NCBI GenBank assembly: GCA_037974665.1
Contig: CM075771.1
Location: forward strand, 38,672,425-38,736,424
Direction: 5' to 3'
Source: Ehretia macrophylla
Lineage: Eukaryota > Streptophyta > Magnoliopsida > Boraginales > Ehretiaceae
DNA length: 64,000 bases
The first letter of the stretch is position 1. Each line of letters starts with the position of its first letter. Of this stretch, positions 19,541 through 45,482 are shown piece by piece. The notes beneath the pieces were generated by a model, which was not told the origin of the DNA, did not search any database, and worked only from the letters and a program-made list of their open reading frames with translations. Both the position numbers and the translations under genes were made by a program.

Positions 19541-20097
19541 CTTGTCAATTTTTTTTATCTCTGGTTAGGGTTGACAAGATACTTTATCCACCAAAACTCT
19601 ATTACCGAATCCCACGGAACATTGGGCAAGACAACTTCGCTTCACCTAGAGGCCGGGCCCGCAAACCGAGGGCGTAGGGTTTGTGACTAGGTCTTCGTCG
19701 CTACGGTGCCCATAACTTTTGATCCGTAAGGAGTTACAAGGTGCACGACATACCGTTGCAAAGCTCTCTGAGAGCTCTACGACGAGGGCAGGCAGCTTGC
19801 TCACTTTGCCCTTTTTGGAGCCCAAAATCGAACGTTTTCATCAGTTTCAGGCCACTTTTTTACTTTTGCTATGTTTTTCCTTCCTGGATCGTACGTCGTT
19901 AGCTGTTAAAAGTAGGACAACCTGACTAGTGGGACATCAGAGGGCCCTACAACGTGTCGATGTCACGTCTTGTGAGGATGCTACATTGTTGAAGCGGATG
20001 GGTTGTCGTTAAGCCCATTGGGCCTTTTGAATGGGCCATCTCTCTGGCTGGCACTATGAACCGCTAACACATATAGGAATTGTGCCCTCAACATGAT

Positions 20098-20191
20098 GGG
20101 TGCGATCATACCAGCAATAATGCACCGGATCCCATCAGAACTCCGAAGTTAAGCGTGCTTGGGCGAGAGTAGTACTAAGATGGGTGACCTC
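20098..20191 (+). pseudogene. 5S rRNA: 5S rRNA pseudogene, D type (25-nt 3' deletion)
   Basis: Starts normally (C20A, G81A), then jumps from nt 89-92 to the gene end, losing 25 nt (about 90-114), including most of box C and the 3' half of the outer helices. Its IGS also lacks AACTTC (near 20281), the linked mark of all D units. Confidence 0.92.
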
Positions 20192-20742
20192 CTTTTCAAT
20201 TTTTCTTGCCCTCGTTAAGGTTGCCAAGATACTTTATCAACCAAATCTCTATTACCGAATCCCACGGAAGATTGGGCAAGACGCTTCACGTAGAGGCCGG
20301 GCCCGCAAACCGAGGGCATAGGGTTTGTGACCATTTCTTTATCGCTCCGGTGCCCATAACTTTTGATCCGTAAGGAGTTACGCGGCGCACAACATACCGT
20401 TGCAAAGCACTTTGAGAGCACTACGACGGGAGCAGCCAGCTTGCTCGATTTACCCTTTTTGGAGTCCAAAATCGAACGTTTTCATTAGTTTCAGGCCACT
20501 TTTCTTCTTTTGCTCTGTTTTTCTGTCTCGGATCGTACGTCGTGAGCTGTTAAAAGGACGACAACCTGACTCGCAGGACATCAAAAGGCCTTACAACGTG
20601 TCGATATCACGTCTTGCGAGGATGCTGTGTTGTTGAAGTAGATGGGTTGTCGTTAAGCCCATTGGGCCTTTTGAATGGGCCATCTCCCTAGGCTGGCATT
20701 GTGAACTGTTAGCACATATAGGAATTGTGCCATCAACATGAC

Positions 20743-20861
20743 GGGGGCGATCATACCAGCACTAATGCACCGGATCCCATCAGAACTCCGAAGTTAAGCG
20801 TTCTTGCACGAGAATAGTACTAGGATGGGTGAGCCCCTGGGAAGTCCTCGTGCTGCACCCC
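20743..20861 (+). rRNA. 5S rRNA: 5S rRNA gene copy 15
   Basis: Differences T4G, G60T, G65C, G66A, G72A, C91G and T111C. It shares five of them with copy 18, its counterpart in the duplicated three-unit block. Box A, the intermediate element and box C are all altered. Confidence 0.92.
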
Positions 20862-21419
20862 CTTTTCAATTTTTTTTTGCCCAAGTCAAGGTTGCCAAGA
20901 TACTTTATCCACCAAATCTCTATTACCGAATCCCATGGAACATTGGGCAAGACAACTTCGCTTCACGTAGAGGCTGGGCTCGCAAACCGAGGGTATAGGG
21001 TTTGTGACCAGGTCTCTGTCGCTTCGGTGCCCATAAATTTTGATCCTTAAGGTGTTACACGGCGCACAACATACCGTTGCAAAGCTCTCTGAGAGCTCTA
21101 CGATGGGGGCAGCCAGCTTGCTCACTGTGCCCTTTTTGGAGTCCAAAATCGAACGTTTTCATCAGTTTCAGGCCACTTTTCTTCTTTTGCTCTATTTTTT
21201 TGTCTCGGATCGTACGTCGTGAGCTGTTAAAAGGACGACAACCTGACTCGCGGGGCATCAGAAGGCCCTACAATGTAGCGATATCATGTCCTGCGAGGAT
21301 GCTGCATTGTTGAATCGGATGGGTTGTCATTAAGACCATTGGGCCTTTTGAATGTGCCATCTCTCTAGGCTGGCACAGTGAACCGTTAGCACATAGAGGA
21401 ATTGTGCCCTCAACATGAA

Positions 21420-21538
21420 GGGTGCGATCATACCAGCACTAATGAACCGAATCCCATCAGAAATCCGAAGTTAAGCGTTCTTGCGCGAGAATAGTACTAG
21501 GATGTGTGACCCCCTTGGAAGTCCTCGTGTTGCACCCC
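21420..21538 (+). rRNA. 5S rRNA: 5S rRNA gene copy 16
   Basis: Differences C26A, G31A, C44A, G60T, G65C, G72A, G86T and G97T. Counterpart of copy 19 (six shared). Last gene of the first three-unit block. Confidence 0.92.
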
Positions 21539-22094
21539 ATTTTCAAATTTTTTTGCCCAGGTTAAGGTTGCCAAGATACTTTATCCACCAAAACTCTATT
21601 ACCGAATCCCACGGAACATTGGGCAAGACAACTTCGCTTCACCTAGAGGCCGGGCCCGCAAACCGAGGGCGTAGGGTTTGTGACTAGGTCTTCGTCGCTA
21701 CGGTGCCCATAACTTTTGATCCGTAAGGAATTACAAGGCGCACGACATACCGTTGCAAAGCTCTCTGAGAGCTCTACGACGAGGGTAGCCAGCTTGCTCT
21801 CTTTGCCCTTTTTGGAGCCCAAAATCGAACGTTTTCATCAGTTTCAGGCCACTTTTCTACTTTTGCTCTGTTTTTCCTTCCTGGATCTCATGTCGTTAGC
21901 TGTTAAAAGTAGGACAACCTGACTCGTGGGACATCAGAGGGCCCTACAACGTCTCGATGTCACGTCTTGTGAGGATGCTGCATTGTTGAAGCGGATGGGT
22001 TGTCGTTAAGCCCATTGGGCCTTTTGAATGGGCCATCTCTCTGGCTGGCACTATGAACCGTTAACACATATAGGAATTGTGCCCTCAACATGAC

Positions 22095-22188
22095 GGGTGC
22101 GATCATACCAGCAATAATGCACCGGATCCCATCAGAACTCCGAAGTTAAGCGTGCTTGGGCGAGAGTAGTACTAGGATGGGTGACCTC
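22095..22188 (+). pseudogene. 5S rRNA: 5S rRNA pseudogene, D type
   Basis: Same 25-nt deletion and the same C20A as the D copy at 20098, 1,997 bp upstream. The IGS lacks AACTTC near 22277. It was clearly copied as part of the three-unit block. Confidence 0.92.
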
Positions 22189-22739
22189 ATTTTCAACTTT
22201 TCTTGCCCTTGTTAAGGTTGCCAAGATACTTTATCCACCAAATCTCTATTACTGAATCCCACGGAAGATTGGGCAAGACGCTTCACGTAGAGGCCGAGCC
22301 CGTAAACCGAGGGCATAGGGTTTGTGACCATTTCTTTGTCGCTTCGGTGCCCATAACTTTTGATCCATAAGGTGTTACGCAGTGCACAACATACCGTTGC
22401 AAAGCTCTTTGAGAGCTCTACGACGGGGGCAGCCAGCTTGCTCGATTTGCCCTTTTTGGAGTCCAAAATTGAACGTTTTCTTTAGTTTCAGGCCACTTTT
22501 CTTCTTTTGCTCTGTTTTTCTGTCTCGGATCGTACGTCGTGAGCTGTTAAAAGGACGACAACCTGACTCGCGGGACATCAGAAGGCTTTACAACGTGTCG
22601 ATATCACGTCTTGCGAGGATGTTGTGTTGTTGAAGCGGATGGGTTGTCGTTAAGCCCATTGGGCCTTTTGAATGGGCCATCTCCCTAGGCTGGCATTGTG
22701 AACTGTTAGCACATATAGGAATTGTGCCATCAACATGAC

Positions 22740-22858
22740 GGGTGCAATCATACCAGCACTAATGCACCGGATCCTATCAGAACTCCGAAGTTAAGCGTTC
22801 TTGCGCGAGAATAGTACTAGGATGGGTGAGCCCCTAGGAAGTCCTCGTGCTGCACCCC
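22740..22858 (+). rRNA. 5S rRNA: 5S rRNA gene copy 18
   Basis: Differences G7A, C36T, G60T, G65C, G72A, C91G, G97A and T111C. Partner of copy 15. Confidence 0.92.
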
Positions 22859-23415
22859 CTTTTCAATTTTTTTTGCCCAGGTCAAGGTTGCCAAGATACT
22901 TTATCCACCAAATCTCTATTACCGAATCCCACGGAACATTGGGCAAGACAACTTCGCTTCACGTAGAGGCTGGGCTCGCAAACCGAGGGTATAGGGTTTG
23001 TGACCAGGTCTCTGTTGCTCCGGTGCCCATAAATTTTGATCCTTAAGGTGTTACACGGCGCACAACATACCGTTGCAAAGCTCTTTGAGAGCTCTACGAC
23101 GGGGGCAGCCAGCTTGCTCACTGTGCCCATTTTGGAGCCCAAAATCAAACGTTTTCATCAGTTTTAGGCCACTTTTCTTCTTTTGCTCTGTTTTTTCGTC
23201 TCGGATCGTACGTCGTGAGCTGTTAAAAGGATGACAACCTGACTCGCGGGGCATCATAAGGCCCTACAATGTAGCGATATCATGTCTTGCGGGGATGCTG
23301 CGTTGTTGAATCGGATGGGTTGTCATTAAGCCCATTGGGCCTTTTGAATGGGCCATCTCTCTAGGCTGGCACTGTGAACCGTTAGCACATAGAGGAATTG
23401 TGCCCTCAACATGAA

Positions 23416-23534
23416 GGGTGCGATCATACCAGCACTAATGCACCGAATCCCATCAGAACTCCGAAGTTAAGCGTTCTTGCACGAGAATAGTACTAGGATG
23501 TGTGACCCCCTTGGAAGTCCTCGTGTTGCACCCC
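23416..23534 (+). rRNA. 5S rRNA: 5S rRNA gene copy 19
   Basis: Differences G31A, G60T, G65C, G66A, G72A, G86T and G97T. Partner of copy 16. The following IGS is 780 bp instead of about 557 because part of it is repeated. Confidence 0.92.
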
Positions 23535-23994
23535 CTTCTCAATTTTTTTTGCCCAGGTTAAGGTTGCCAAGATACTTTATCCACCAAATCTCTATTACCG
23601 AATCCCACGGAACATTGGGCAAGACAACTTCGCCTCACGTAGAGGCCGGGCCCGCAAACCGAGGGCATAGGCTTTGTGACCAGGTCTCTGTCGCTCCGGT
23701 GCCCATAACTTTTGATCCGTAAGCAGTTACGTGGTGCACAACATACCGTTGCAAAGCTCTCTGAGAGTTCTACGACAGGGACAGCGAGCATGCTCGCTGT
23801 GCCAGTTTTGGAGCCCAAACTCGAACGTTTTCATCAGTTTAAGGCCACTTTTCTTCTTTTGCTCTGTTTTTCCGTCTCGGATCGTTCGTCGTGAGCTGTT
23901 AAAAGGACGACAACCTGACTCGCGGTACATCAGAGGGTCCTACAATGTGTCGATATCACTTCTTGCGAGGATGGTGCATTGTTGAAGCGGATCG

Positions 23995-24217
23995 GTTGTC
24001 GATATCACATCTTGCTCGATGTGCCCCTTTTTGGAGCCAAAAATCGAACGATTTCAACAGTTTCAGGCCACTTTTGTTCTTTTGCTCTGTTTTTCCGCCC
24101 CAGATCGTACGTCGTGAGCTGTTAAAAGGATGACAACCTGACTCGCGGGACATCAGAGTGCCCTACAATGTGTCGATATCACATCTTGCGGGGATGCTGC
24201 GTTTTTGAAGCGGATGG
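23995..24217 (+). repeat. Extra gene-less IGS segment (about 223 bp)
   Basis: After GGATCGGTTGTCG the spacer jumps back to earlier IGS motifs (GATATCACATCTTGC, then CTCGATGTGCCCC) and runs through the second half of the IGS again before the next gene. The joins fall at short shared sequences (TGTCG and CTTGC), the usual mark of slippage or template switching. Both ends are approximate. Confidence 0.8.
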
Positions 24218-24314
24218 GTTGTTGTTAAGCCTATTGGGCCATTTGAGTGGGCCATCTCTCTAGGCCGGCACTGTGAACCATTAACACATATAGGAATTGT
24301 GCCCTCAACATGAC

Positions 24315-24433
24315 AGGTGCGATCATACCAGTACTAATGCACTAGATCCCATAAGAACTCCGAAGTTAAGCGTGCTTGGGCGAGAGTAGTACTAGGATGG
24401 GTGACCGCTTGGGAAGTCCTCGTGTTGCACCCC
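24315..24433 (+). rRNA. 5S rRNA: 5S rRNA gene copy 20
   Basis: Full length with G1A, C18T, C29T, G30A, C39A, C93G and C95T. Its IGS belongs to the E group (CGCATCACG and TCTCTTTCGCTCC). Confidence 0.92.
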
Positions 24434-24989
24434 CTTTTCAATTTTTTTGCCCTAGTTAGGGTTACCAAGATACTTTATCTACCAAATCTCTATTACCGAA
24501 TCCCACGGAACATTGGGCAAGACAAATTCGCATCACGTAGAGGCCGGGCATGCAAGCTGAGGGCGTAGGGTTTGTGACCAGGTCTCTTTCGCTCCGGTGC
24601 CCATAACTTTTGATCCGTAAGGAGTTACAGGGCGCACAGCATATCGTTGCAAAGCTCTCTGAGAGCTCTACGACGGGGATAGCTAGCTTGCTCGCTCTGC
24701 CCTTTTTGGAGTCCAAAATCGAATGTTTTCATCAGTTTTAGGCCACTTTTGTTCTTTTGCTCTATTTTTCCGTCCAGGATCGTACGTCGTGAGTTGTTAA
24801 AAGGACGACAACCTGACTCGCGGGACATCAGAGGGCCCTACAACGTGTCGATATCACGTCTTGCGATGATGCTGCAATTTTTAAGCGGATGGGTTGTCGT
24901 TAAGCCCATTGGGCCTTTTGAAACCGCCATCTCTCTAGGCTGGGACTATGAACCGTTAACACATATAGGAATTGTGCTCTCAACATGAC

Positions 24990-25108
24990 GGGTGCGATCA
25001 TACCAGCACTAATGCACAGGATCCCATTAGAACTCCGAAGTTAAGCGTTCTTGGGCGAGAGTAGTACTAGGATGGGTGACCCCCTGGGAAGTCCTCGTGT
25101 TGCACCCC
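24990..25108 (+). rRNA. 5S rRNA: 5S rRNA gene copy 21 (G type IGS)
   Basis: Close to consensus (C29A, C39T, G60T). Followed by six C residues rather than five. Its IGS has the G-type mark GTGCACCTTTTTGGTGCCC near 25374. Confidence 0.94.
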
Positions 25109-25666
25109 CCTTTTCAATTTTTTTTGCTCTGGTTAGGGTTGCCAAGATACTTTATCCACCAAATCTTTATTACTGAATCCCACAGAAAATTGGGCAAGAC
25201 AACTTCGCTTCACTTAGAGGCCGGGCCCGCAAATCGAGTGCGTAGGGTTTGTGACCAGGTCTCTATCGCTCTGGTGCCCATAACTTTTGATCCGTAAGGA
25301 GTTACGCGGCGCACAACATACCGTTGCAAAGCTCTTTGAGAGCTCTACGACGGGGGCACTGAGCTTGCTCGCTGTGCACCTTTTTGGTGCCCAAAATCGA
25401 ACATTTTCAGCAGTTTCAGGCCACTTTTGTTCTTTTGCTATGTTTTTTCGTCCCGGATCAAACGTCGTGAGCTGTTAAAAGAACGAAACCTGACTCGCGG
25501 GACATCAGAGGGCCCTACAATGTGTCGACATCACGTCTTGCGAGGATACTGCGTTGTTGAAGCGGATGGGTTGTCATTAAACCCATTGGGCCTTTTGAAT
25601 GGGCCATCACTCTAGGCTGGTACTGTGAACCGTTAACACATATAGGAATTGTGCCCTCAACATGAC

Positions 25667-25785
25667 GGGTGTAATCATACCAGCACTAATGCCACGGATC
25701 CCATCAGAACTCCGAAGTTAAGCATGCTTGGGCGAGAGTAGTACTAGGATGGGTGACCCCCTGGGAAGTCCCCGTGTTGCACCCC
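25667..25785 (+). rRNA. 5S rRNA: 5S rRNA gene copy 22 (I type)
   Basis: Differences C6T, G7A, A27C, C28A, G58A and T106C. The A27C/C28A pair (GCCACGG) is shared only with copy 30 at 30904, 5,237 bp away, and both precede an H unit. Confidence 0.93.
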
Positions 25786-26343
25786 CTTTTCATTCTTTTT
25801 TGCCCTAATTAGGGTAGGCAAGATACTTTATCCACCAAATCTCTATTACCGAATCCCACAGAACATTGGGCAAGACAACTTCGCTTCACGTAGAGGCCGG
25901 GCCTGCAAACCGAGGGCGTAGGGTTTGTGACCAGGTCTCCGTCGCTCTGGTGCCCATAACTTTTGATCCTTAAGGTGTTACACGGCGCACAGCATACCGT
26001 TGCAAAGTTCTCTGAGAGCTATATGATGGGGGCAGCTAGCTTGCTCGCTGTTCCCATTTTTCGAGCCCAAAATCGAACGTTTTCATCAGTTTCTGGCCAT
26101 TTTTATTCTTTTCCTCTATTTTTCTATCCCGGATCGTACATCGTGAGTTGTTAAAAGGACGACAACCTGACTCGTGGGACATCAGAGGGCCTTACAATGT
26201 GTCGATATCACGTCTTGCGAGGATGCTGCATTGTTGAAGCGGATGGGTTGTCGTTAAGCCCGTTGGGCCTTTTGAATGGACTATCTCTCTAGGTTGGGAC
26301 TGTGAACCGATAACACATATAGGAATTGTGTCCTCAACATGAC

Positions 26344-26363
26344 GGGTGCGATCATACCAGAAC
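26344..26363 (+). pseudogene. 5S rRNA: 5S rRNA 5' stub (nt 1-20), H type
   Basis: Only GGGTGCGATCATACCAGAAC remains, joined directly to the IGS start TTTTCAATTTT. About 99 nt of gene is deleted. C18A and the preceding IGS (CTATCTCTCTAGG, GTGTCCTCAAC) identify it as an H unit, related to copies at 31580 and 34930, which keep the gene. Confidence 0.93.
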
Positions 26364-26919
26364 TTTTCAATTTTTTTTGCCCTAGATAGGGTTGCCAAGA
26401 TACTTTATCCACCAAATCTCTATTATCGAATCCCACGGGACAATGGGCAAAACAACTTTGCTTCACATAGAGGCCGGGCCCGCAAACCGAGGTCGTAGGG
26501 TTTGTGACCAGGTCTCCATCGCTCTGGTGCCCATAACTTTTGATCCGTAAGGAGTTACGCAGCGCACAGCATACCGTTGCAAAGCTCTCTGAGAGCTCTA
26601 CGATGGGGGCAGCCAGCTTGCTCGTTGTGCCCTTTTTGGGGCCCAAAATCGAACGTTTTTATCAGTTTTAGGCCACTTTTGTTCTTTTGCTCTGTTTTTT
26701 CGTCCCGAATCGTACGTCGTGAGCTGTTAAAAAGAAGATAGTCTGGCTCGTGGGACATCAGAGGGCCCTACAACGTGTCGATATCACGTCTTGCGAGGAT
26801 GCTGTGTTGTTGAAGCGAATTGGTTGTCGTTAAGCCCATTGGGCCTTTTGAATGGGCAATCTCGCTGGGCTGGCACTGTGAACCGTTAACACATATAGGA
26901 ATTGTGCCCACGGCATGAC

Positions 26920-27013
26920 GGGTACGATCATACCAGCACTAATGCACCGGATCCCATCAGAACTCTGAAGTTAAGCGTGCTTGGGCGAGAGTAGTTCTAG
27001 GATAGGTGACCCC
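26920..27013 (+). pseudogene. 5S rRNA: 5S rRNA pseudogene, D type
   Basis: Deletion join reads GGTGACCCCCTTTTC, exactly as expected from recombination between the two ACCCCCT copies of the intact gene. Other changes: G5A, C47T, A77T and G85A. The IGS lacks AACTTC near 27100. First of two adjacent D units. Confidence 0.93.
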
Positions 27014-27563
27014 CTTTTCAATTTTTTTTGCCCTGGTTAGGGTTGCCAAGATACTTTATCCACCAAATCTCTATTACTGAATCCCACGGAACAATGGGCA
27101 AGACGCTTCACATAGAGGCCGGGCCTGCAAACCGAGGGCGTAGGGTTTGTGACCAGGTCTCCGTCACTCCGGTGCCCATAACTTTTGATCCGTAAGGAGT
27201 TACAGGGCGCACAGCATATCATTGCAAGGCTCTCTGAGAGCTCTACGACGGGGATAGCTAGCTTGCTCGCTCTGCCCTTTTTGGAGTCCAAAATCGAACA
27301 TTTTCATCAGTTTCTGGCCACTTTTTTTCTTTTGATCTATTTTTCATCTCGGATCATACGTCTTGAGCTGTTAAAAGGACGACAGCTGGACTCGCGGGAC
27401 ATCAGAAGGCCCTACAACGTGTCGTTATCACGTCTTGCATGGATGCTGCGTTGTTGGAGCGGATGGGTTGTCGTTGAGCCCATTGGGCCTTTTGAATGGG
27501 CCATCTCTCTAGGCTAGGACTGTGAACCGTTAAGACATATAGGAATTGTGCGCTCAACATGAC

Positions 27564-27657
27564 GGGTGCGATCATACCAGCACTAATGCATCGGATCCCA
27601 TCAGAACTCCGAAGTTAAGCGTGCTTGGGCGAGCGTAGTACTAGGATAGGTGACCCA
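27564..27657 (+). pseudogene. 5S rRNA: 5S rRNA pseudogene, D type (second of an adjacent pair)
   Basis: Same deletion, with C28T, A71C and G85A. Shares G85A and much of its IGS with the D unit 644 bp upstream, so the pair looks like a single-unit duplication. Confidence 0.92.
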
Positions 27658-28207
27658 CTTTTCAATTTTTTTTGCCTTGGTTAGGGTTGCCAAGATACTT
27701 TATCCACCAAATCTCTATTACTGAATCGCACGGAACATTGGGCAAGACGCTTCACATAGAGGCCGGGCCCGCAAACCGAGGGCGTAGGGTTTGTGACCAG
27801 GTCTCCATCGCTCCGGTGCCCATAACTTTTGATCCGTAAGGAGTTACAGGGCGCACAGCATATCGTTGCAAAGCTCTCTGAGAGCTCTACGACGGGGACA
27901 GCTAGCTTGCTCGCTCTGCCCTTTTTGGAGTCCAAAATTGAACATTTTCATAAGTTTCAGGCCACTTTTCTTCTTTTCCTCTATTTTTCATCTCGGATCG
28001 TACGTCGTGAGCTGTAAAAAGGACGACAGCCTGACTCGTGGGATATCAGAAGGCCCTACAACGTGTCGATATCACGTCTTGTGAGGATGCTGCGTTGTTG
28101 GAGTAGATGGGTTGTCGTTAAGCCCATTGGGCCTTTTGAATGGGCCATCTCTCTAGGCTTTGAGTGTGAACCATTAATACATATAGGAATTGTGCCCTCA
28201 ACATGAC

Positions 28208-28326
28208 GGCTGCGATCGTACCATCACTAATGCATCGGATCCCATCAGAACTCCGAAGTTAGGCGTTCTTGGGCGAGAGTAGTCCTCGGATGGGTGACCC
28301 CTTGGGAAGTCCTCGTGTTGGACCCC
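28208..28326 (+). rRNA. 5S rRNA: 5S rRNA gene copy 26 (E type IGS)
   Basis: Strongly diverged: G3C, A11G, G17T, C28T, A55G, G60T, A77C, A80C, C95T and C114G. Box A and helix I are hit, so it is probably a full-length pseudogene. Confidence 0.88.
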
Positions 28327-28884
28327 CTTTCCAATTTTTTTTACCCTGGTTAGGGTTGCCAGGATACTTTATCTACCAAATCTCTATTACCGAATCCCAC
28401 GGAACATTGGGCAAGACAACTTCGCTTCACGTAGAGGACGGGCCAGCAAACCGAGGGCGTAGGGTTTGTGACCAGGTCTCCGTCGCTCTGGTGCCTATAA
28501 CTTTTGATCCGTAAGGAGTTACGCGGTGCACAGCATACCGTTGCAAAGCTCTCTGAGAGCTCTACGACAGGGGGACCGAGATTGCTCGTTGTGCCCCTTT
28601 TTAGACACCAAAATCGAACGTTTTCATTAGTTTTAGGCCTCTTTTGTTCTTTTGCTCTGTTTTTCCGTCCCGGATCGTACGTCGTGAGCTGTTAAAAGGA
28701 CGACAACCTGACTCGCGGGACATCAGAGGGCCCTACAACGTGTTGATATCACGTCTTGCAATGATGCTGCGTTTTTGAAGCGGATGGGTTGTAGTTAAGA
28801 CCATTGGGCCTTTTGAAACGGCCATCTCTCTAGGCTGGGACTATGAACTGTTAACAAATATAGGAATTGTGCCCTCAACATGAC

Positions 28885-29003
28885 GGGTACGATCATACTA
28901 GCACTAATGCACCAGATCCCATCAGAACTCCGAAGTTAAGCGTGCCTGGGCGAGAGTAGTACTAGGATAGGTGACCGCCTGGGAAGTCCTCGTGTTGCAC
29001 CCC
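28885..29003 (+). rRNA. 5S rRNA: 5S rRNA gene copy 27 (E type)
   Basis: Differences G5A, C15T, G30A, T62C, G85A and C93G. C93G and the IGS marks CGCATCACG and TCTCTTTCGCTCC link it to copies 20 and 38. Confidence 0.92.
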
Positions 29004-29549
29004 CTTTTCAATTTTTTTTGACCTAGTTAGGGTTGCCAAGATACTTTATCTACCAAATCTCTATTACCGAATCCCACGGAACATTGGGCAAGACAACTTC
29101 GCATCACGTAGAGGCCGGGCCTGCAAACCAAGGGCTTAGGGTTTGTGACCAGGTCTCTTTCGCTCCGGTGACCATAACTTTTGATCCGTAAAGAGTTACG
29201 TAGCGCACAACATACCGTTGTAAAGCTCTATGCGGGGACAGCGAGCAAGCTGGCTGTGCCCCTTTTTGGAGCCCAAAATCGAATGTTTTCATCAGTTTCA
29301 GGCCACTTTTGTTCTTGTGCTCTGTTTTTCTGTCCCGGATCGTACGTCGTGAGTTGTTAAAAGGATGACAACCTGAATCGCATGACATCAGAGGGCCCTA
29401 CAACATGTCGATATCACGTCTTGCGATGATGCTGCATTTTTTAAGCGGATGGGTTGTCGTTAAGCCCATTGGGCCTTTTGAAATGGCCATCTCTCTAGGC
29501 TGGGACTATGAACCGTCAACACATATAGGAATTGTGCTCTCAACATGAC

Positions 29550-29668
29550 GGGTGCGATCATACCAGCACTAATGCACCAGATCCCATCCGAACTCCGAAT
29601 TTAAGCTTGCTTCGGCGAGAGTAGTACTTGGATGGGTGACCCCATGGGAAGTCCTCGTGTTCCACCTT
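29550..29668 (+). rRNA. 5S rRNA: 5S rRNA gene copy 28 (F type)
   Basis: Carries the F mark G51T and G58T (AATTTAAGCTTGCTT), with G30A, A40C, G64C, A80T, C95A, G113C, C118T and C119T. Box A is changed in all F copies. Confidence 0.9.
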
Positions 29669-30226
29669 CTTTTCAATTTTTTTTGCTCTGGTTAGGGTTG
29701 CCAAGATACTTTATCCACCAAATCTCTGTTACCGAATCCTACCGAACATTGGGCAAGACAGCTTCGCTTCACGTAGAGGCCGGGCCCGTAAACCAAGGGC
29801 GTAAGGTTTTTGACCAGGTCTCCGTCGCTCCGGTGCCCATAACTTTTGATCCGTAAGGCGTTACGTAGCGCACAGCATAACATTGCAACGCTCTCTGAGA
29901 GCTCTACGACGGGGGCAGCGTGCTTGCTCGCTTTGCCCATTTTGGGAGCCCAAAATCGAACATTTTCATCAGTTTCAAGCAACTTTTCTTCTTTTGCTAT
30001 GTTTTTCCATCCCGGATCGTACATCGTGAGCTGTTAAAAGGACGACAACCTGACTCGCGAGACATCAGAGGGCCCTACAACGTGTCGCTATCACATCTTG
30101 CGAGAATGCTGCGTTGTTGAAGTGGATGGGTTGTCGTTAAGCCCAATGGGCCTTTTGAATGGGCCATCTCTCTAGGCTGGCATTGTTAACCGTTAACACA
30201 TATAAGAATTGTGCCCTCAACATGAC

Positions 30227-30345
30227 GGGTGCGATCATACCAGCACTAATTCACCGGATCCCATCAGAACTCCGAAGTTAAGCATTCATGGGCGAGAGTA
30301 GTACTAGGATGGGTGACCCCTTGGGAAGTCCTCGTGTTGCACACC
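30227..30345 (+). rRNA. 5S rRNA: 5S rRNA gene copy 29 (G type IGS)
   Basis: Differences G25T, G58A, G60T, T62A, C95T and C117A. The gene variant set matches copy 33 (E), while the IGS is G type, so gene and spacer have been reshuffled. Confidence 0.92.
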
Positions 30346-30903
30346 CTTTTCAATTTTTTTTGCCCTAGTTAGGGTTGCCAAGATACTTTATCCACCAAAT
30401 CTCTATTAGCGAATCCCACGGAACATTGGGCAAGACAACTTTGCTTAACGTAGAGGCCAGGCCTGCAAACCGAGGGCGTAGGGTTTGTGACCAGGTCTCC
30501 GTGTCTCTGGTGCCCATAACTCTTGATCCGTAAGGAGTTACACGGTGCACAGCATACCGTTGCAAAGCTCTCTGAGAGCTCTACGACGGGGGCACCAAAC
30601 TTGCTCGCTGTGCACCTTTTTGTTGCCCAAAACCTATCATTTTCATCAATTTCAGGCAACTTTTCTTCTTTTGCTATGTTTTTCCATCCCGGATCGTACG
30701 TTGTGAGCTGTTAAAAGGACGACAACCTGACTCGAAGGACATCAGAGGGCCCTACAACGTGTCGATATCACGTCTTGCGAGGATGCTGCGTTGTTGAAGC
30801 GGATGGGTTGTCATTAAACCCATTGGGCCTTTTGAATGGGCCATCTCCCTAGGCTGGTACTGTGAACCGTTAACACATATAGGAATTGTGCCCTCAACAT
30901 GAC

Positions 30904-31022
30904 GGGTGCAATCATACCTGCATTAATGCCACGGATCCCATCAGAACTCCAAAGTTAAGCGTGCTTGGGTGAGAGTAGTACTAGGATGGGTGACCCCCTG
31001 GGAAGTCCTCGTGTTGCACCCC
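30904..31022 (+). rRNA. 5S rRNA: 5S rRNA gene copy 30 (I type)
   Basis: Differences G7A, A16T, C20T, A27C, C28A, G48A and C67T. Pairs with copy 22 by GCCACGG and by GGTTGGCAAG/GGTAGGCAAG early in the IGS. Confidence 0.92.
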
Positions 31023-31579
31023 CTTTTCATTTTTTTTGCCCTGGTTAGGGTTGGCAAGATACTTTATCCACCAAATCTCTATTACCGAATCCCATGGAAC
31101 ATCGGGCAAGACAACTTCGCTTCACGTAGAGGCCGGGCCTGCAAACCGAGGGCATAGGGTTTGTGACCACGTCTCCGTCGCTCCGGTGCCCATAACTTTT
31201 GATCCGTAAGGAGTTACACGGCGCACAGCATACCGTTGCAAAGCTCTCTGAGAGCTGTACGATGGGGGCAGCAAGCTTGCTTGCTATGCCCATTTTTGGA
31301 GCACAAAATCGAACGTTTTCATCAGTTTTAGGCCATTTTTATTCTTTTGCTCTATTTTTCCATCCCGGATCGTACGTCGTGAGTTGTTAAAAGGATGACA
31401 ACCTGACTCGCGGGACATTAGAGGGCCCTACAATGTGTCGAAAGCACGTCTTGCGAGGATGCTATGTTGTTGAAGCGGATGGGTTGTCGTTAAGCCCGTT
31501 GGGCCTTTTGAATGGGCTATCTCTCTAGGTTGGGACTGTGAACCGATAACATTTATAGGATTTGTGTCCTCAACATGAC

Positions 31580-31697
31580 GGATGCGATCATACCAGAACT
31601 AATGCACCGGATCCCATCAGAACTCCGAAGTTAAGCATTCTTGGGCGAGAGTAGTACTAGGATGGGTGACCCCTGGGAAGTCCTCGTGTTGCACCCC
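31580..31697 (+). rRNA. 5S rRNA: 5S rRNA gene copy 31 (H type, 118 nt)
   Basis: One C is missing from the C run at 91-95. Also G3A, C18A, G58A and G60T. First unit of the regular five-unit higher-order repeat. Confidence 0.92.
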
Positions 31698-32254
31698 ATT
31701 TTCAATTTTCTTTGCCCTAGTTAGGGTTGGCAAGATACTTTATCCACCAAATCTCTATTACCGAATCCCACGGAACAATGGGCAAAACAACTTCACTTCA
31801 CATAGAGGCCAGGCCCGCAAACCGAGGGCGTAGGGTTTGTGACCAGGTCTCCATCGCTCTGGTGCCCATAACTTTTGATCCGTAAGGAGTTACGCAGTGC
31901 ACAGCATACCGTTGCAAATCTCTCCAAGAGCTCTACGACGGTGGCAGCCAGCTTGCACGCTGTGCCCTTTTTGGGGCCCAAAATCGAACGTTTTCATCAG
32001 TTTCAGGCCACTTTTGTTCTTTAGCTCTGTTTTTTCGTCCCGAATCGTACGTTGTGAGCTGTTAAAAAGACGACAGTCTGACTCGCCGGACATCAGAGGG
32101 CCACAAAACGTGTTGATATCACGTCTTGCGAGGATGCTGCATTGTTGAAGCGGATTGGTTATCGTTCAGCCCATTGTGCCTTTTGAATGGGCCATCTCTC
32201 TAGGCTGGGACTGTGAACCGTTAACACATAAAGGAATTGTGCCCTCAACATCAC

Positions 32255-32348
32255 GGGTGCCGTAATACTAGCACTAATGCACCGGATCCCATCAGAACTC
32301 CGAAGTTAAGCGTACTTGGGCGAGAGTAGTACTAGGATGGGTGACCCC
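32255..32348 (+). pseudogene. 5S rRNA: 5S rRNA pseudogene, D type
   Basis: 25-nt deletion plus G7C, A8G, C10A, C15T and G60A. The IGS lacks AACTTC near 32437. Confidence 0.92.
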
Positions 32349-32898
32349 CTTTTCAATTTTCTTTGCCCTGGTTAGGGTTGCCAAGATACTTTATCCACCA
32401 AATCTCTATTACTGAATCCCACGGAATATTGGGCAAGACGTTTCACATAGAGGCCGGGCCTGCAAACCTAGGGCGTAGTGTTTGTGACCTTGTCTCCGTC
32501 GCTCCAGTGCCCATAACTTTTGATCTGTAAGGAGTTACGGGGCGCACAGCATACCGTTGCAAAGCTCTCTGAGAGCTCTACGACGGGGGCAGCCAGCTTT
32601 CTCGATGTGCCCTTTTTGGAGTTCAAAATTGAACGTTTTCATCAGTTTAGGCCACTTTTCTTCTTTTGCTATGTTTTTTCATCTCGGATTGTACGTCGTG
32701 AGCTGTTAAAAGGACGACAACCTGACTCGCGGGACATCAAAAGGCCCTACAACGTGTCGATATCACGTCCTGCGAGGATGCTGCATTGTTCGAGCGGATG
32801 GGTTGTCGTTAAGCCCATTAGGCCTTTTGAATAGGCCATCTATCTAGGCTGCGACTGTGAACTATTAACACAAATAGGAATTGTGCCCTCAACATGAC

Positions 32899-33017
32899 GG
32901 GTGTGATCGTACCAGCACTAATTCACCGGATCCCATCAGAACTCCGAAGTTAAGCATTCATGGGCGAGAGTAGTACTAGGATGGGTGACCCCTTGGGAAG
33001 TCCTCGTGTTGCACCCC
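32899..33017 (+). rRNA. 5S rRNA: 5S rRNA gene copy 33 (E type)
   Basis: Differences C6T, A11G, G25T, G58A, G60T, T62A and C95T; box A carries three of them. Confidence 0.92.
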
Positions 33018-33575
33018 CTTTCCAATTTTTTTTGCCCTGGTTAGGGTTGCCAAGATACTTTATCCACCAAATCTCTATTACCGAATCCCACGGAACATTG
33101 GGCTAGACAACTTTGCTTCACGTAGAGGTCGGGCCCGCAAACCGAGGGCGTAGGGTTTGTGACCAGGTCTCTTTCGCTCCGGTGCCCATAACTTTTGATC
33201 CGTAAGGAGTTACGCAGCGCAAAACATACCGTTGCAAAGCTCTCTGAGAGCTCTACGACGGGGGGACTGAGATTGCTCGTTGTGCCCTATTTTGGAGCCC
33301 AAAATCGAATGTTTTCATTAGTTTCAGGCCATTTTTGTTATTTTGCTCTATTTTTCCGTCCCGCATCGTACGTCGTGAGCTGTTAAAAGGACGACAACCT
33401 GACTCGTGGGACATCAGAGGGCCCTACAAGGTGTCAATATTACGTCTTGCGATGATGCTGCGTTTTTGAAGCAGATTGGTTGTCGTTAAACCCATTGGGC
33501 CTTTTAAAACGGCCATCTCTCTAGGCTGGGACTATGAACCGTTAACACATATAGGAAATGTGCTCTGAACATGAC

Positions 33576-33694
33576 GGGTGCGATCATACCAGCACTAATT
33601 CTCCGGATCCCATCAGAACTCCGAATTTAAGCTTGCTTCGCCGAGAGTAGTACTAGGATGGGTGACCCCTTGGGAAGTCCTTGTGTTGCACCCC
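33576..33694 (+). rRNA. 5S rRNA: 5S rRNA gene copy 34 (F type)
   Basis: Differences G25T, A27T, G51T, G58T, G64C, G66C, C95T and C107T. Shares G51T, G58T and G64C with copy 28. Confidence 0.91.
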
Positions 33695-34252
33695 CTTTTC
33701 AATTTTTTTTGCCCTGGTTAGGGTTGCCAAGATAATTTATCTACCAAATCTCTATTAACGAATCCCACTGAACATTGGGCAAGATAACTTCCCTTCACGT
33801 AGAGGCCGGGCCTGCAAACCGAGGGCGTAGGGTTTGTAACCAGGTCTTTGTCGCTCTGGTGCCCTTAACTTTTGATCCGTAAGGAGTTACGTAGCGCACA
33901 ACATACCGTTACAAAGCTCTCTGAGAGCTCTACGACGGGGGCAGCGTGCTTGCTCACTTTGCCCATTTTTGGAGCTCAAAATCGAACGTTTTCATCAGTT
34001 TCAGGCCACTTTTCTTGTGTCGCTATGTTTTTCCATCCCGGATCGTACGTCGTGAGCTGTTAAAAGGACGATAACCTGACTCGCGGGACTTCAGATGGCC
34101 CTACAATGTGTTGATATCACGTCTTGCGAGGATGCTGCGTTGTTGAAGCGGATGGGTTGTCATTAAACCCATTGGGCCTTTTGAATGGGCCATCTCTCTA
34201 GGCTGGTACTGTGAACCGTTAACACATATAGGAATTGTGCCGTCAACATGAC

Positions 34253-34371
34253 GGGTGCAATCATACCAGTACTAATGCACCGGATCCCATCAGAACTCCG
34301 AAGTTAAGCGTGCTTGGGCGAGAGTGGTACTAGAATGGGTGACCCCCTGGGAAGTCCTCGTGTTGCACCCC
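34253..34371 (+). rRNA. 5S rRNA: 5S rRNA gene copy 35 (G type)
   Basis: Differences G7A, C18T, A74G and G82A. Box A is intact. Confidence 0.93.
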
Positions 34372-34929
34372 CTTTTCATTTTTTTTTGCCCTGGTTAGGG
34401 TTGGCAAGATACTTTATCAACCAAATCACTATTACCGAATCGCACGGAACATTGGGCAAGACAACTTCGCTTCACGTAGAGGCCGGGCCTGCAAACCGAG
34501 GGCGTAGGGTTTGTGACCAGGTCTCCGTCGCTCCGGTGCCCATAACTTTTGATCCGTAAGGAGTTACGCGACGCACATCATACCGTTCCAAAGCTCTCTG
34601 AGAGCTCTACGATGGGGGCACCGAGCTTGCTTGCTGTGAACCTTTTTGGTGCCCAAAATCGAACAGTTTCATCTATTTCAGGCCACTTTTGTTCTTTTGC
34701 TATGTTTTTTCATCCCGGATCGTACGTCGTGAGTTGATAAAAGGACGACAACCTGACTTGCGGGACATTGGAGGGCCTTACAACGTGTTGATATCACGTC
34801 TTGCGAGCATGCTACGTTGTTGAAGCAGATGGGTTGTCGTTAAGCCCGTTGCGCCTTTTGAATGGGCTATCTCTCTAGGTTGGGACTGTGAACCGATAAC
34901 ACGTATAGAAATTGTGTCCTAAACATGAT

Positions 34930-35048
34930 GGGTGTGATCATACTAGAACTAATGCACCGGATCCCATCAGAACTCCGAAGTTAAGCATTCTTGGGCGAGA
35001 GTAGTACTAGGATGGGTGACCCCCTGGGAAGTCCTCGTGTTGCACCCA
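34930..35048 (+). rRNA. 5S rRNA: 5S rRNA gene copy 36 (H type)
   Basis: Differences C6T, C15T, C18A, G58A, G60T and C119A. Starts the second five-unit block, 3,350 bp after copy 31. Confidence 0.92.
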
Positions 35049-35603
35049 TTTTTAATTTTTTTTGCCCTAGTTAGGGTCGCCAAGATACTTTATCCACCAA
35101 ATCTCTATTACCGAATCTCGCAGAACAATGGGCAAAACAACTTCGATTCACATAGAGGCCGGGCTCGCAAACCGAGGGCGTAGGGTTTGTGACCAGGTCT
35201 CCATCGCTCTGGTGCCCATAACTTTTGATCCGTAATGAGTTACGCAGTGCACAACATACCGTTGCAAAGCTCTCTGAGAGCTCTACGACGGGGGCAGACA
35301 GCTTGCTCGCTGTGCCCTTTTTGGGGCCCAAAATCGAACGTTTTCATCAGTTTTAGGCCACTTTTATTCTTTTGCTCTTTTTTTCGTCACGAATCGTAAG
35401 TCATGAGCTGTTGAAAAGACTACAGTCTTACTCGCAGGACATCAGAGGGCCCTACAACTTGTCGATATCACGTCTTGCGAGGATGCTGCGTTGTTGAAGC
35501 GGATTGGTTGTCGTTAAGCCCATTGGGCCTTTTGAATGGGCCATCTCTCTAGCCTGGCACTGTGAACCATTAACACATATAGGAATTGTGCCCTCAACAT
35601 GAC

Positions 35604-35697
35604 GGGTAAGATCATACTAGCACTAATGCACCGGATCCCATCAGAACTCCGAAGTTAAGCGTGCTTCGGCAAGAGTAGTACTAGGATGGGTGACCCC
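35604..35697 (+). pseudogene. 5S rRNA: 5S rRNA pseudogene, D type
   Basis: 25-nt deletion plus G5A, C6A, C15T, G64C and G68A. Exactly 3,349 bp after the D unit at 32255. Confidence 0.92.
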
Positions 35698-36248
35698 CTT
35701 TTCATTTTTTTTTGCCCTGGTTAGGGTTGCCAAGATACTTTATCCCCCAAATCTCTATTACTGAATCCCACTGAACATTGGGCAAGATGCTTCACGTAGA
35801 CGCCGGGCCTGCAAACTGAGGGCGTAGGGTTTGTGACCAGGTCTCCGTGGCTCCGGTGCCCATAACTTTTGATCCGTAAGGAGTTACGGTGCGCACAGTA
35901 TACCGTTACAATGCTCTCTGAGAGCTCTACGACGGGGGCAGCTGGCTTGCTCCCTGTGCCCTTTTTGGAGTCCAAAATCGAAGGTTTTCATTAGTTTCAG
36001 GCCACTTTTCTTCTTTTGATCTGTTTTTTCATCTCGGATCGTAGGTCGTGAGCTGTTAAAAGGACGACAACCTGACTAGCGGGACATCAGAAGGCCCTAC
36101 AACGTGTCGATATAACATTTTGCGAGGATGCTGCATTGTTGGAGCGGATGGGTTGTCGTTAAGCCTATTGGGTCTTTTGAATGGGCCATCTCTCTAGGCT
36201 GGGACTGTGAACCGTTAACACATATAGGAATTGTGCCCTCAACATGAC

Positions 36249-36367
36249 GGGTGCAATCGTACCAGCACTAATGCACTGGATCCCATCAGAACAATGAAGT
36301 TAAGCGTTCTTGGGCGAGAGTAGTACTAGGATGGGTGACCGCCTGGGAAATCCTCGTGTTGCACCCC
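36249..36367 (+). rRNA. 5S rRNA: 5S rRNA gene copy 38 (E type)
   Basis: Differences G7A, A11G, C29T, T45A, C46A, C47T, G60T, C93G and G102A. The IGS has the CGCATCACG mark shared with copies 20 and 27. Confidence 0.91.
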
Positions 36368-36924
36368 CTTTTCAATTTTTTTTGCCCTAGTTAGGGTTGC
36401 CAAGATACTTTATCTACCAAATCTCTATTACCGAATCCCACGGAACATTGGGCAAGACAACTTCGCATCACGTAGAGGCCAGGCCCGCAAACTGAGGGCA
36501 TAGGGTTTATGACCAGGTCACTTTCGCTCCGGTGTCCATAACTTTTGATCCGTAAGGAGTTACGCAGCGCACAACATACCGTTGCAAAGCTCTCTGTAAG
36601 CTCTACGCTGGGGCAGCGTGCTAGCTTGCTGTGCCCCTTTTTGGAGTCCAAAATCGAATGTTTTCATCAGTTTCAGGCCACTTTTGTTCTTTTGCTCTGT
36701 TTTTCCGTCCCGGATCGTACGTCGTGAGCTATTAAAAGGACGACAACCTGACTCGCAGGACATTCGAGGGCCCTACAATGTGTCAATATCACATCTTGCG
36801 ATGATGCTGCGTTTTTGAAGCGGATGGGTTGTCGTTAAGCCCATTGGGCCTTTTGAAACGGCCATCCCTCTAGGCTGGGACTATGAACCGTTAACACATA
36901 TCGGAATTGTGCTCTCAACATGAC

Positions 36925-37043
36925 GGGTGCGATCATACCAGCACTAATGCACCGGATCCCATCTGAACTCCGAATTTAAGCTTGCTTGGGCGAGAGTAGT
37001 ACTATGATGGGTGACCTCCTGGGTGGTCCTTGTGTTGCACCCC
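36925..37043 (+). rRNA. 5S rRNA: 5S rRNA gene copy 39 (F type)
   Basis: Differences A40T, G51T, G58T, G81T, C93T, A100T, A101G and C107T. The only copy here with T at 93, the base I know from other plant 5S genes. Confidence 0.91.
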
Positions 37044-37601
37044 CTTTTCAATTTTTTTTGCCCTGGTTAGGGTTGCCAAGATACTTTATCCACCAAATCT
37101 CTATTACCGAATCCCACTGAACATTGGGCAAGACAACTTCGCTTCACGTAGAGACCGGGCCCGCAAACCGAGGGCGTAGGGTTTGTCACCAAGTCTCCGT
37201 CGCTCTGGTGCCCATAACTTTTGATCCGTAAGGAGTTACGCAGCGAAAAGCATACCGTTGCAAAGCTCTCTGAGAGCTCTACGACGGGGGCAGTGTGCTT
37301 GCTCGCTTTGCCTATTTTTGGAGCCCAAAATCGAACGTTTTCATCAGTTTTAGGCCACTTTTCTTCTTTTTCTATGTTTTTCCATCCCGGATCGTACGTC
37401 GTGAGCAGTTAAAAGGATGACAACCTGACTTGCGGGACATCATAGGGCCTTACAGTGTGTCGATATCACGTCTTGCGAGGATGCTGCGTTGTTTAAGCAG
37501 ATGCGTTGTCGTTAAGCCCAATGGGCCTTTTGAATGGGCCATCTCTCTAGGCTGGCACTGTGAACTGTTAACACATATAGGAATTGCGCCCTTAACATGA
37601 C

Positions 37602-37720
37602 GGGTGCGATCATACCAGCACTAATGCACCGGATCCCATCAGAACTCTGAAGTTAAGCGTGCTTGGGCGAGAGTAGTACTAGGATGGGTGACCCCTTGGG
37701 AAGTCCTCGTGTTGCACCCC
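37602..37720 (+). rRNA. 5S rRNA: 5S rRNA gene copy 40 (G type), closest to consensus
   Basis: Just two differences, C47T and C95T, with box A, the intermediate element and helix I ends intact. Of all copies in the window this is the best candidate for a functional gene. Confidence 0.95.
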
Positions 37721-38278
37721 CTTTCCAATTTTTTTTGCCGTGGTTAGGGTTGCCAAGATACTTTATCCACTAAATCTCTATTACCGAATCCCACGGAACA
37801 TTGGGCAAGACAACTTCGCTTCACGTAGAGGCCGAGCCCGCAAACCGAGGGCGTAGGGTTTGTGACCAGGTCTCCGTCGCTCCGGTGCCTATAACTTTTG
37901 ATCTATAAGGACTTACGTGGCGCACAGCATACCGTTGCAAAGCTCTCTGAGAGCTCTACGACGGGGGCATCGAGCATGCTCGCTGTGCACCTTTTTGGTG
38001 CCCAAAATCGAATATTTTCATCAGTTTCAGGCCACTTTTGTTCTTTTGCTATGTTTTTCCATCCTGGATCGTACGTAATGAGTTGTTAAAAGGACGACAA
38101 CCAGACTCATGGGACATCAGTGGGCCCTACAGCGTGTCGATATCACGTCTTGCGAGGTTGCTGCGTTGTTGAAGTGAATGGGTTGTCGTTAAGCCCATTG
38201 GGCCTTTTGAATGGGCCATCTCTCTACGATGGGACTGTGAACCGTTAACACATGTAGGAATTGTGCCCTCAACATGAC

Positions 38279-38397
38279 GGGTGCGATCGCACCACCACTA
38301 ATGCACCGGATCCAATCAGAACTCTGAAGTTTAGCGTGCTTGGGCGAGAGTAGTAATAGGATAGGTGACCCCATGGGAAGTCCTCGTGTTGCACCCC
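38279..38397 (+). rRNA. 5S rRNA: 5S rRNA gene copy 41 (H position)
   Basis: Nine differences: A11G, T12C, G17C, C36A, C47T, A54T, C78A, G85A and C95A. It takes the H place in the block order but lacks C18A. Confidence 0.9.
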
Positions 38398-38953
38398 CTT
38401 TTCAATTTTTTTTGCCCTAGTTAGGGTTGCCAAGATACTTTATCCACCAAATCTCTATTACTGATTCCCACAGAACATTAGACAAAACAACTACGCTTCA
38501 CGTAGAGGCCGGGCCCGCAAACCGAGGGCGTAGGGTTTGTGACCAGGTTTCTATCGCTCTGGTGCCATAACTTTTGATCCGTAAGGAGTTACACAGCCCA
38601 CAACATACTGTTGCAAAGCTCTATGAGAGATCTACGACCGGGGCAGCTAGCTTGCTCGCTGTGCCCTTTTTGGGACCCAAAATCGAACGTTTTCATCAGT
38701 TTCAGGCCACTTTTCTTCTTTTGCTCTATTTTTTCGTCCCGGTTCGTACGTCGTGAGCTGTTTAAAAGACAACAGCCTGACTCGCGGGACATCAGATAGC
38801 CCTACAAGGTGTCGATATCACGTCTTGCGAGGATGCTGCGTTGTTGAAGCGGATTGGTTGTCGTTAAGCCCCTTGGGCCTTTTGAATGGGCCATCTCTCT
38901 AGGCTGGCACTGTGAACCGTTAACACATATAGGAATTGTGCCCTCAACATGAC

Positions 38954-39047
38954 GGGTGCGATCATACTAGCACTAATGCACCAGATCCCATCAGAACTCC
39001 GAAGTTAAGCGTGCTTGGGCGAGAGTAGTACTAGGATGGGTGACCCC
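38954..39047 (+). pseudogene. 5S rRNA: 5S rRNA pseudogene, D type
   Basis: 25-nt deletion plus C15T and G30A. It is 3,350 bp after the D unit at 35604. The IGS reads GGCAAGACACTT near 39129, again without AACTTC. Confidence 0.92.
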
Positions 39048-39598: not shown

Positions 39599-39717
39599 GG
39601 GTATGATCATACCAGTACTAATGCACCGGATCCCATCAGAACTCCGATGTTAAGCGTGCATGGACGAGAGTAGTACTAGGATGGGTGACCCCCTAGGAAG
39701 TCTTCGTGTTGCACCCA
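39599..39717 (+). rRNA. 5S rRNA: 5S rRNA gene copy 43
   Basis: Nine differences: G5A, C6T, C18T, A50T, T62A, G66A, G97A, C105T and C119A. Confidence 0.9.
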
Positions 39718-45469: not shown

Positions 45470-45482
45470 TCCTCCCCTCCTT
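45470..45482 (-). other. Polypurine tract of element 2
   Basis: AAGGAGGGGAGGA on the - strand, identical to that of element 1 and directly against the LTR. Confidence 0.88.

Follow-up and report, generated by a model that had tools for sequence, protein, structure and literature searches.

The window analysed here, a 64-kb stretch on C8, holds an array of ~677-bp 5S units, seven of which carry the same two deletions (D units), and these seven most probably belong to one pseudogene lineage that has been copied in blocks, as passive cargo, within a decaying 5S-derived satellite, both along the array and between chromosomes. Arrays of rRNA genes are textbook cases of concerted evolution and are expected to purge broken copies. 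Here, the two linked deletions mark a broken copy, which can be traced one unit at a time via local multi-unit duplications into other chromosomes; this shows how large the copying step is: a block, not one unit.

The window contains 61 matches to 5S_rRNA (Rfam, RF00001), and 60 units were aligned; the remaining match, at 52179 (45.7 bits), was left out because an LTR element interrupts the unit. We define a D unit by a 25-nt deletion in the gene together with a 6-nt deletion (AACTTC) in the intergenic spacer (IGS). The first gap covers consensus nt 91–115 and occurs in exactly seven of the 60 units; the second covers consensus 210–215, 95 nt beyond the end of the first, and occurs in the same seven of 59 units, unit 63817 being cut by the window end before the AACTTC site. 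Neither gap is found in any other aligned window unit. All seven nevertheless match 5S_rRNA above the Rfam gathering score (60.7–74 bits, ranks 54 to 60 of 61), each match extending past the deletion junction. Copies of ACCCCCT start at consensus nt 90 and nt 115, a spacing of 25 nt. In all of this the initial annotation, which had reported the shared losses and the repeat from reading the sequence, was accurate. The D units are as follows.

20098..20742, + strand: D unit 1, subtype T, 645 bp; reciprocal nearest neighbour of 22095, three units away
22095..22739, + strand: D unit 2, subtype T, 645 bp; reciprocal nearest neighbour of 20098
26920..27563, + strand: D unit 3, subtype B, 644 bp; nearest is the adjoining D unit 27564
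27564..28207, + strand: D unit 4, subtype B, 644 bp; nearest 26920, second nearest 32255
32255..32898, + strand: D unit 5, subtype B, 644 bp; nearest 27564 (seven units back), second nearest 35604 (five units on)
35604..36248, + strand: D unit 6, subtype B, 645 bp; nearest 26920, second nearest 32255
38954..39598, + strand: D unit 7, subtype C, 645 bp; tree neighbours on C4 and C5

Position 39047, given as the end in the initial annotation, falls in mid-unit, the last D unit ending at 39598. The coincidence of both length changes in the same seven units, and again on C4 and C5 (see below), is non-random.

Within the window the D units lie in repeated groups of units:

18068..41626, + strand: array block of 34 units between two LTR elements, holding all window D units
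19422..23415, + strand: three-unit tandem duplication, with 19422/20098/20743 as source and 21420/22095/22740 as copy
24990..33575, + strand: seven-unit register, pairs 24990–30227, 25667–30904, 27564–32255 and 28208–32899
30904..38953, + strand: five-unit register, pairs 30904–34253, 31580–34930, 32255–35604, 32899–36249, 33576–36925 and 34930–38279

The three pairs of the tandem duplication differ by 0.056, 0.040 and 0.037, against a mean of 0.116 (~12%) between window units. In the seven-unit register the partner is the nearest unit for at least one member of each pair, and in the five-unit register it is the nearest or second nearest. Averaged over blocks and compared with shuffles, offsets 3 (z = -3.0) and 5 (z = -2.6) were the lowest, both by a modest margin, with offset 7 weaker (z = -1.6); around the D units the nearest units lie at these three offsets, and at 54206–58946 they lie four apart. 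In higher-order repeats of satellite DNA, each unit most resembles those a fixed number of units (k) away, which gives multi-unit registers, and here too units at fixed offsets are closer to each other than to their neighbours. Unlike long regular satellite higher-order arrays, the registers seen here (3, 4, 5 and 7 units) are local and decayed. The pattern is one of D units that spread in multi-unit blocks.

Among the rows compared from other loci, 19 more, on C4 and C5, carry both deletions, as expected if the type was copied after inactivation, in more than one place. At C4:86.46, 88.58 and 32.97 Mb the D subtypes follow the order T-B-C, as they do in the window. In 20 kb compared unit by unit (C4:88.577–88.597 Mb), the nearest window unit fell within the 34-unit D block for 26 of 28 units, the order of that block resembled that of the C4 segment (Spearman 0.83 along the array, with a P-value that assumes independence), and best matches differed by 4–11%. 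The longest ordered run of best matches was 14, compared with a mean of 8.7 and a maximum of 15 in 10 000 shuffles, which themselves yield long runs, since after local duplication several units share one and the same best match in the window. The units around D at C4:88.58 Mb also match those around D in the window, in similar order.

A tree of 212 rows from the window, C4, C5 and other loci, and AU tests with the deletion columns removed, separate the history of the pair from that of each deletion. When all 26 two-deletion rows were constrained to one clade, the AU test did not reject the arrangement (P = 0.753), and the likelihood was better than that of the free quick tree, where eight intact rows and L069 fell inside the common ancestor of the 26. 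L069, a C5 unit of T-type background with the 25-nt loss and without the 6-nt loss, could be added to the clade (P = 0.831). Along the tree the 6-nt deletion (26 carriers) needs at least four changes and the 25-nt deletion (49 carriers) at least 23, and a single clade of all 49 was rejected (P = 1.59e-55), which rules out a single origin of every 25-nt deletion. Many units with the 25-nt loss alone group with undeleted units from the locus where they lie, as on C9 (L073), C6 (L021) and C1 (L009). Subtype clades B and C had moderate support (SH-aLRT 73 and 75), and the group with only the 6-nt loss was not joined to the D group with support.

Separate IGS and gene trees of the window, also suggested earlier, gave a mixed outcome. 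On the IGS tree the D label changes twice for its seven carriers, and one D clade, although 3.2 log-likelihood units below the free tree, was not rejected (P = 0.44). On the short 84-nt gene alignment the D rows are scattered (seven changes for seven carriers), and one clade was again not rejected (P = 0.24). Taken together, the linked deletions, as a shared inactivating change, support one lineage that was later copied, although a clade that is not rejected is weaker than a clade that is shown. The initial annotation's inference of one origin followed by copying therefore stands for the pair and fails for the 25-nt deletion as a one-off event.

That the 25-nt loss recurs can be attributed to the common 5S type, which reads ACCCCCT and so forms a perfect 7-nt direct repeat; this form is exact in 2611 places in the genome, whereas the ACCTCCT form is exact in 17. 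The deletion fits slippage between the repeats, as first proposed, or a process like it, but a single event does not account for all of its carriers in the genome. This points to a deletion hot spot in the genome's own 5S type, which keeps yielding the same loss. AACTTC, too, is lost by itself, in 19 of the 20 places fetched for the 6-nt loss. Units with only one deletion in many backgrounds, which the initial annotation had named as a refutation, thus literally do occur; this takes away the uniqueness of each deletion and leaves the single origin of the pair standing.

Might the same pieces, then, have been lost independently in all seven copies? Both the recurrence at the ACCCCCT repeat and the solitary 6-nt losses speak for this, but the two losses coincide in the same seven of 59 window units, and among 108 full units from loci chosen by 5S score, not by junction, none had either loss. 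With the AU tests, this makes a repeated double event very unlikely, and we give next to no weight to the idea that each unit acquired the pair separately. The possibility that assembly errors produced the repeats, the D copies or the genome-wide count deserves equally little: repeat arrays are difficult to assemble, but assembly duplication would give near-identical copies, which argues against it given the divergence among window units and between C4 and the window, and the array is interrupted by LTR elements with diverged LTRs. A spread of D unit by unit through gene conversion, with no block duplication, is the more serious rival, if still an unlikely one. L018_2065p combines a full-length gene with a D-like 3′ IGS, and with L069, perhaps a second chimera, it implies that exchange does shuffle parts of units; moreover, over its full length D unit 38954 is nearest, within the window, to the undeleted unit 24990 and only then to D unit 20098. 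Against conversion of single units, neighbours of several D units have been copied along at the same offsets, and the surroundings at C4:88.58 Mb match those in the window.

It is also very improbable that D units are kept for a useful short 5S-like RNA. In favour, ATATAGG is kept in the upstream stretch of six of the seven (ATAAAGG in 32255), and over gene nt 1–90 D genes differ from the consensus by 3.5%, compared with 5.3% for non-D genes. On the other hand, a functional 5S rRNA gene is full-length and able to close helix I, the 3′ strand of which is missing from D units, the predicted fold weakens from -41.5 to -23.9 kcal/mol with loss of the terminal stem, and D spacers drift like others (IGS divergence 6.67%, versus 6.70% in non-D units). 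Divergence and fold thus leave a functional short 5S unsupported.

Nor is it supported that the neighbours of D units are intact genes, as had been assumed: each of the 52 scored non-D genes departs from the consensus by 2–10 differences, and not one matches it exactly, not even the best-scoring:

40950..41068, + strand: full-length 5S gene with the highest score in the window, 114.5 bits

Divergence from the consensus in non-D units is 5.24% in the gene, slightly below that of the spacer. Since genes diverge a little less than spacers do, and the genes of D units less than those of other units, weak constraint or homogenization may be at work.

For a block-copied D lineage we propose the following history. 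As the repeats and trees suggest, slippage, single-strand annealing or microhomology repair in one unit would have removed the 25 nt between two ACCCCCT copies; earlier or later, the same lineage also lost AACTTC. The D unit would then have multiplied with its neighbours in the observed blocks of three, five and seven units, as unequal exchange gives. Segments of ~20 kb with the subtype order T-B-C are present both in the C8 window and at three sites on C4, and related units with both deletions occur on C5; whole stretches of array have therefore probably been copied from one locus to another. Finally, D and full-length copies alike may drift under little purifying selection, and D would never have been removed because of this.

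Amplified 5S pseudogenes have been described within 5S units of Gnetum montanum, with 105 200 5S copies, and Ephedra altissima, whose pseudogenes have a 40-bp deletion (PMC6526317); the initial annotation's view that amplification of a non-functional 5S type is unusual thus needs revision. As in those plants, non-functional copies have here multiplied alongside full-length ones. In what that study presents on the matter, the Gnetum pseudogene is part of a tentative alternating unit derived from short reads, whereas the D units are a minority lineage whose individual units could be traced through assembled arrays and from chromosome to chromosome, and the deletion lies at the 5′ end in Ephedra but at the 3′ end here.

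The larger surprise is the setting, of interest by itself. The genome is probably that of a flowering plant, as an rbcL-like frame (L102) matches Rubisco large chains, the top ones from plants. In the 1.58-Gb genome we counted 224 565 matches to the 5S gene core in the assembly, roughly 10% of the genome, and 5S units were confirmed on 16 of 20 contigs. Pikes (Esox) offer a likeness, with extremely amplified 5S rDNA (> 20 000 copies by sequencing, > 200 thousand by slot blot), very many copies on most chromosomes, long and inverted blocks, IGS variants and a discussion of array spread between chromosomes (PMC5437419). As far as that account goes, Esox shows little pseudogenization, whereas the cores fetched here are diverged and our figure is an assembly count. 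A further study, based on read clustering, likewise found 5S rDNA to be a leading genomic repeat, which its authors call unprecedented; its relevant passages, in contrast to our analysis, trace no truncated lineage.

Elements such as the Cassandra TRIM or 5S-derived SINEs are dispersed, with LTRs or a tail, and do not form tandem units. A 5S-bearing retroelement of this kind is contradicted by the runs of ~677-bp tandem units with one common spacer at 67 of 68 fetched loci, the other (L058) comprising only parts of two adjoining units. Abundant tandem arrays in many chromosomal places are what defines satellite DNA, and we consider it more likely than not, with less assurance than for the D lineage, that the 5S unit has become a dominant satellite of this genome. 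At least 16 of the 20 chromosomes would then hold some 225 000 units with a gene, each ~677 bp long (~150 Mb, or ~10% of the genome), together with a gene-less ~341-bp companion with the same spacer. Whole array blocks would pass from one chromosome to another, with the D lineage as a natural tracer of their movement. Matches to the IGS core number 495 126 genome-wide.

An Rfam search of the window (C8:38,672,425–38,736,424) identified 61 matches to 5S, each on the + strand, and 60 units, mostly of ~677 bp, were aligned. Exactly seven of the 60 carry a 25-nt gap at consensus nt 91–115, as the initial annotation had stated, and ACCCCCT does start twice, 25 nt apart, at consensus nt 90 and nt 115. 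The loss of AACTTC said to accompany this gap was likewise confirmed: a 6-nt gap at consensus 210–215 occurs in the same seven units (D units hereafter; 644–645 bp) and no other aligned unit has either gap, the last unit being truncated by the window end such that its second gap is not scorable. All seven lie in a 34-unit block (18068–41626) between two LTR elements:

Window 6322–17461 (left edge approximate): LTR element inserted in the array, with two 4.16-kb LTRs, 99.1% identical.
Window 41662–52207: second, related LTR element, with ~3.8-kb LTRs, 96.25% identical.

The latter has a 5-bp target duplication, ATCCC (41657–41661 and 52208–52212), within a 5S gene. The former has the look of a large LTR derivative that lacks coding sequence, and no ORF reaching 200 aa is present anywhere in the window.

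The proposal of one origin followed by copying was supported for the linked pair of deletions, but not for the 25-nt loss by itself. All trees were made with the deletion columns taken out. In the window spacer tree, the D type needs two changes for its seven carriers, and a single D clade, 3.2 log-likelihood units worse than the free tree, is not rejected (AU p 0.443); the corresponding gene tree, from a short alignment of 84 nt, is uninformative (seven changes; one clade, p 0.241). Loci outside the window were picked by similarity, by D junction and by 5S score, and this genome search did recover units with both deletions: among 335 full units, a set into which L001, L005 and L026 bring window units again and in which a unit may be counted twice where loci overlap, 29 had both deletions, 23 only the 25-nt deletion, 282 neither, and one had another deletion over the second place. 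Thirty-six of the 40 junction-pattern loci yielded a full-length D unit (37 units), while none was found in the other four (L031, L033, L072, L078).

The wide tree has 212 rows. Left out were identical rows, loci L001, L005 and L026, and all 108 units from the loci chosen by score, L039–L068, which carry neither deletion. On this tree, at least 23 changes are needed to place the 25-nt deletion in its 49 carriers, and four to place the 6-nt deletion in its 26. Forcing the 26 two-deletion rows into one clade altered the likelihood by +31 relative to the free quick tree (p 0.753). The same constraint on all 49 carriers of the 25-nt deletion altered it by −588 (p 1.6e-55), which rules out a single origin for every such deletion. 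Many of the lone carriers, though not every one, adjoin intact units of their own locus in the tree. Given these clade tests, change counts and placements, the linked pair fits one origin, whereas the 25-nt loss by itself has arisen many times.

The 6-nt-loss pattern had 112 matches at up to three mismatches, among them a different repeat on contig C11. The 6-nt gap occurs without the 25-nt gap in 19 of 20 fetched places, the remaining one (L100) being too diverged for scoring and left out. Units with one deletion only, which the initial annotation had set against its own reading, do therefore exist, as the 23 with only the 25-nt loss among the 335 units and as these 19 places. When the 19 rows are added (231 rows), the 6-nt loss takes seven changes; a clade of the two-deletion rows plus locus L069 gives p 0.93, and one that also takes in the 6-nt-only rows gives p 0.525. 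Two 6-nt-deleted units on different chromosomes, L098 (C10:12.57 Mb) and L099 (C19:63.06 Mb), are just 0.5% apart, and so small a divergence suggests recent transfer between them.

Three subtypes, each with members on contig C4, account for most two-deletion rows in the tree:

Subtype T: window units starting at 20098 and 22095; SH-aLRT 96.
Subtype B: window units starting at 26920, 27564, 32255 and 35604; SH-aLRT 73.
Subtype C: window unit starting at 38954; SH-aLRT 75.

Outside the three stand L006 (C5) and L036 (C4:29.8 Mb). The order T, B, C along transcription recurs in the window and at C4:86.46–86.48, 88.58–88.60 and 32.98–32.96 Mb. A 20-kb stretch at C4:88.577 Mb was compared with the window unit by unit: for 26 of its 28 units the best window match falls in the D block (34 of the 59 window units), at distances of 0.04–0.11, and unit order tracks that of the window (Spearman 0.83). 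The longest run in order spans 14 units, a length that shuffles can also reach (mean 8.7, maximum 15). That flanks were copied together with the D units argues for block copying. Exchange inside units also happens, as chimeric units show.

Many units around the D units in the window have their closest relatives 3, 5 or 7 units off (means over the 34-unit block: offsets 3 and 5, a modest signal at z −3.0 and −2.6; offset 7, a weak one at z −1.6). The units at 20098 and 22095 are the corresponding unit of a 3-unit duplication, and those at 27564, 32255 and 35604 belong to registers of 7 and 5 units; for 38954, distances within the window point to no clear D partner. At 54206–58946 closest relatives are 4 units off, and 54206–59621 is a 4-unit tandem duplication without D units:

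Window units 54206, 54884, 55561 and 56239, paired in order with 56915, 57591, 58269 and 58946: distances 0.043–0.062.

Genome-wide, the 5S core has 224,565 matches (reversed control, 0). If every core stands for one 677-bp unit, arithmetic gives about 152 Mb, ~10% of the 1.58-Gb genome. 5S units were fetched from 16 of its 20 contigs (C1–C12, C14, C17–C19). The genome also has an rbcL-like frame whose matches among the Rubisco large chains of the PDB are led by plant chains, which suggests a flowering plant. Against the core count the D type is rare: exact hits to its junction pattern number 24 and one-mismatch hits 44, counted among the matches listed, and the total of 684 at three mismatches takes in mutated undeleted genes. 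The seven of 60 in the window are a local excess due to copying. A second shared deletion, of 37 nt (spacer columns 244–280), in five units on C6 and C10 (L052, L059, L053, L030), marks a second traceable subtype.

None of the 59 scored window units has a gene identical to the consensus. Non-D genes (n = 52) show 2–10 differences from it, with divergences of 5.24% for genes and 6.70% for spacers; the D units diverge by 3.5% (gene nt 1–90) and 6.67% (spacers). D genes, at 3.5% against 5.24%, are thus decaying no faster than their neighbours. The 25-nt deletion takes out the 3′ strand of helix I, and the predicted fold goes from −41.5 kcal/mol for the consensus to −23.9 for its deleted form (3′ end assumed). 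We read the D units as probably passive pseudogenes. At C1:1.2585–1.2685 Mb, genes are 1.98% and spacers 8.5% from the window consensus, a contrast partly due to the window-derived spacer consensus, and three of 14 genes are exact; between units there, the values are 3.9% and 6.8%. The exact consensus gene has 2,611 copies in the genome, all at C1:0.87–1.49 Mb among the matches listed, which start from C1 and do not give the distribution of most copies.

Amplification of a non-functional 5S type, held to be unusual in the initial annotation, has precedents. PMC6526317 reports 105,200 5S copies and amplified pseudogenes in Gnetum montanum, and 5S pseudogenes with a 40-bp deletion in Ephedra altissima; PMC5437419 describes 5S in pikes as strongly amplified and arranged in blocks on most of the chromosomes, with sequencing putting it above 20,000 copies and slot blot above 200 thousand. 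In Prosopanche panguanensis, 5S is the top repeat in abundance. Given these precedents, the D lineage belongs to an already known kind, and the copy number of its host array may perhaps be worth more than the lineage itself.

A spacer core has 495,126 genome matches, and its surplus over the 5S core presumably stems in part from a ~341-bp tandem satellite that lacks the 5S gene, found at C11:45,340,500–45,343,500 and 83–86% identical to spacer columns 164–504; satellite and 5S unit may derive one from the other. Among the matches listed, the strand of 5S cores flips from + to − at C1:3,057,378–3,057,943, the junction of two large blocks of opposite orientation.
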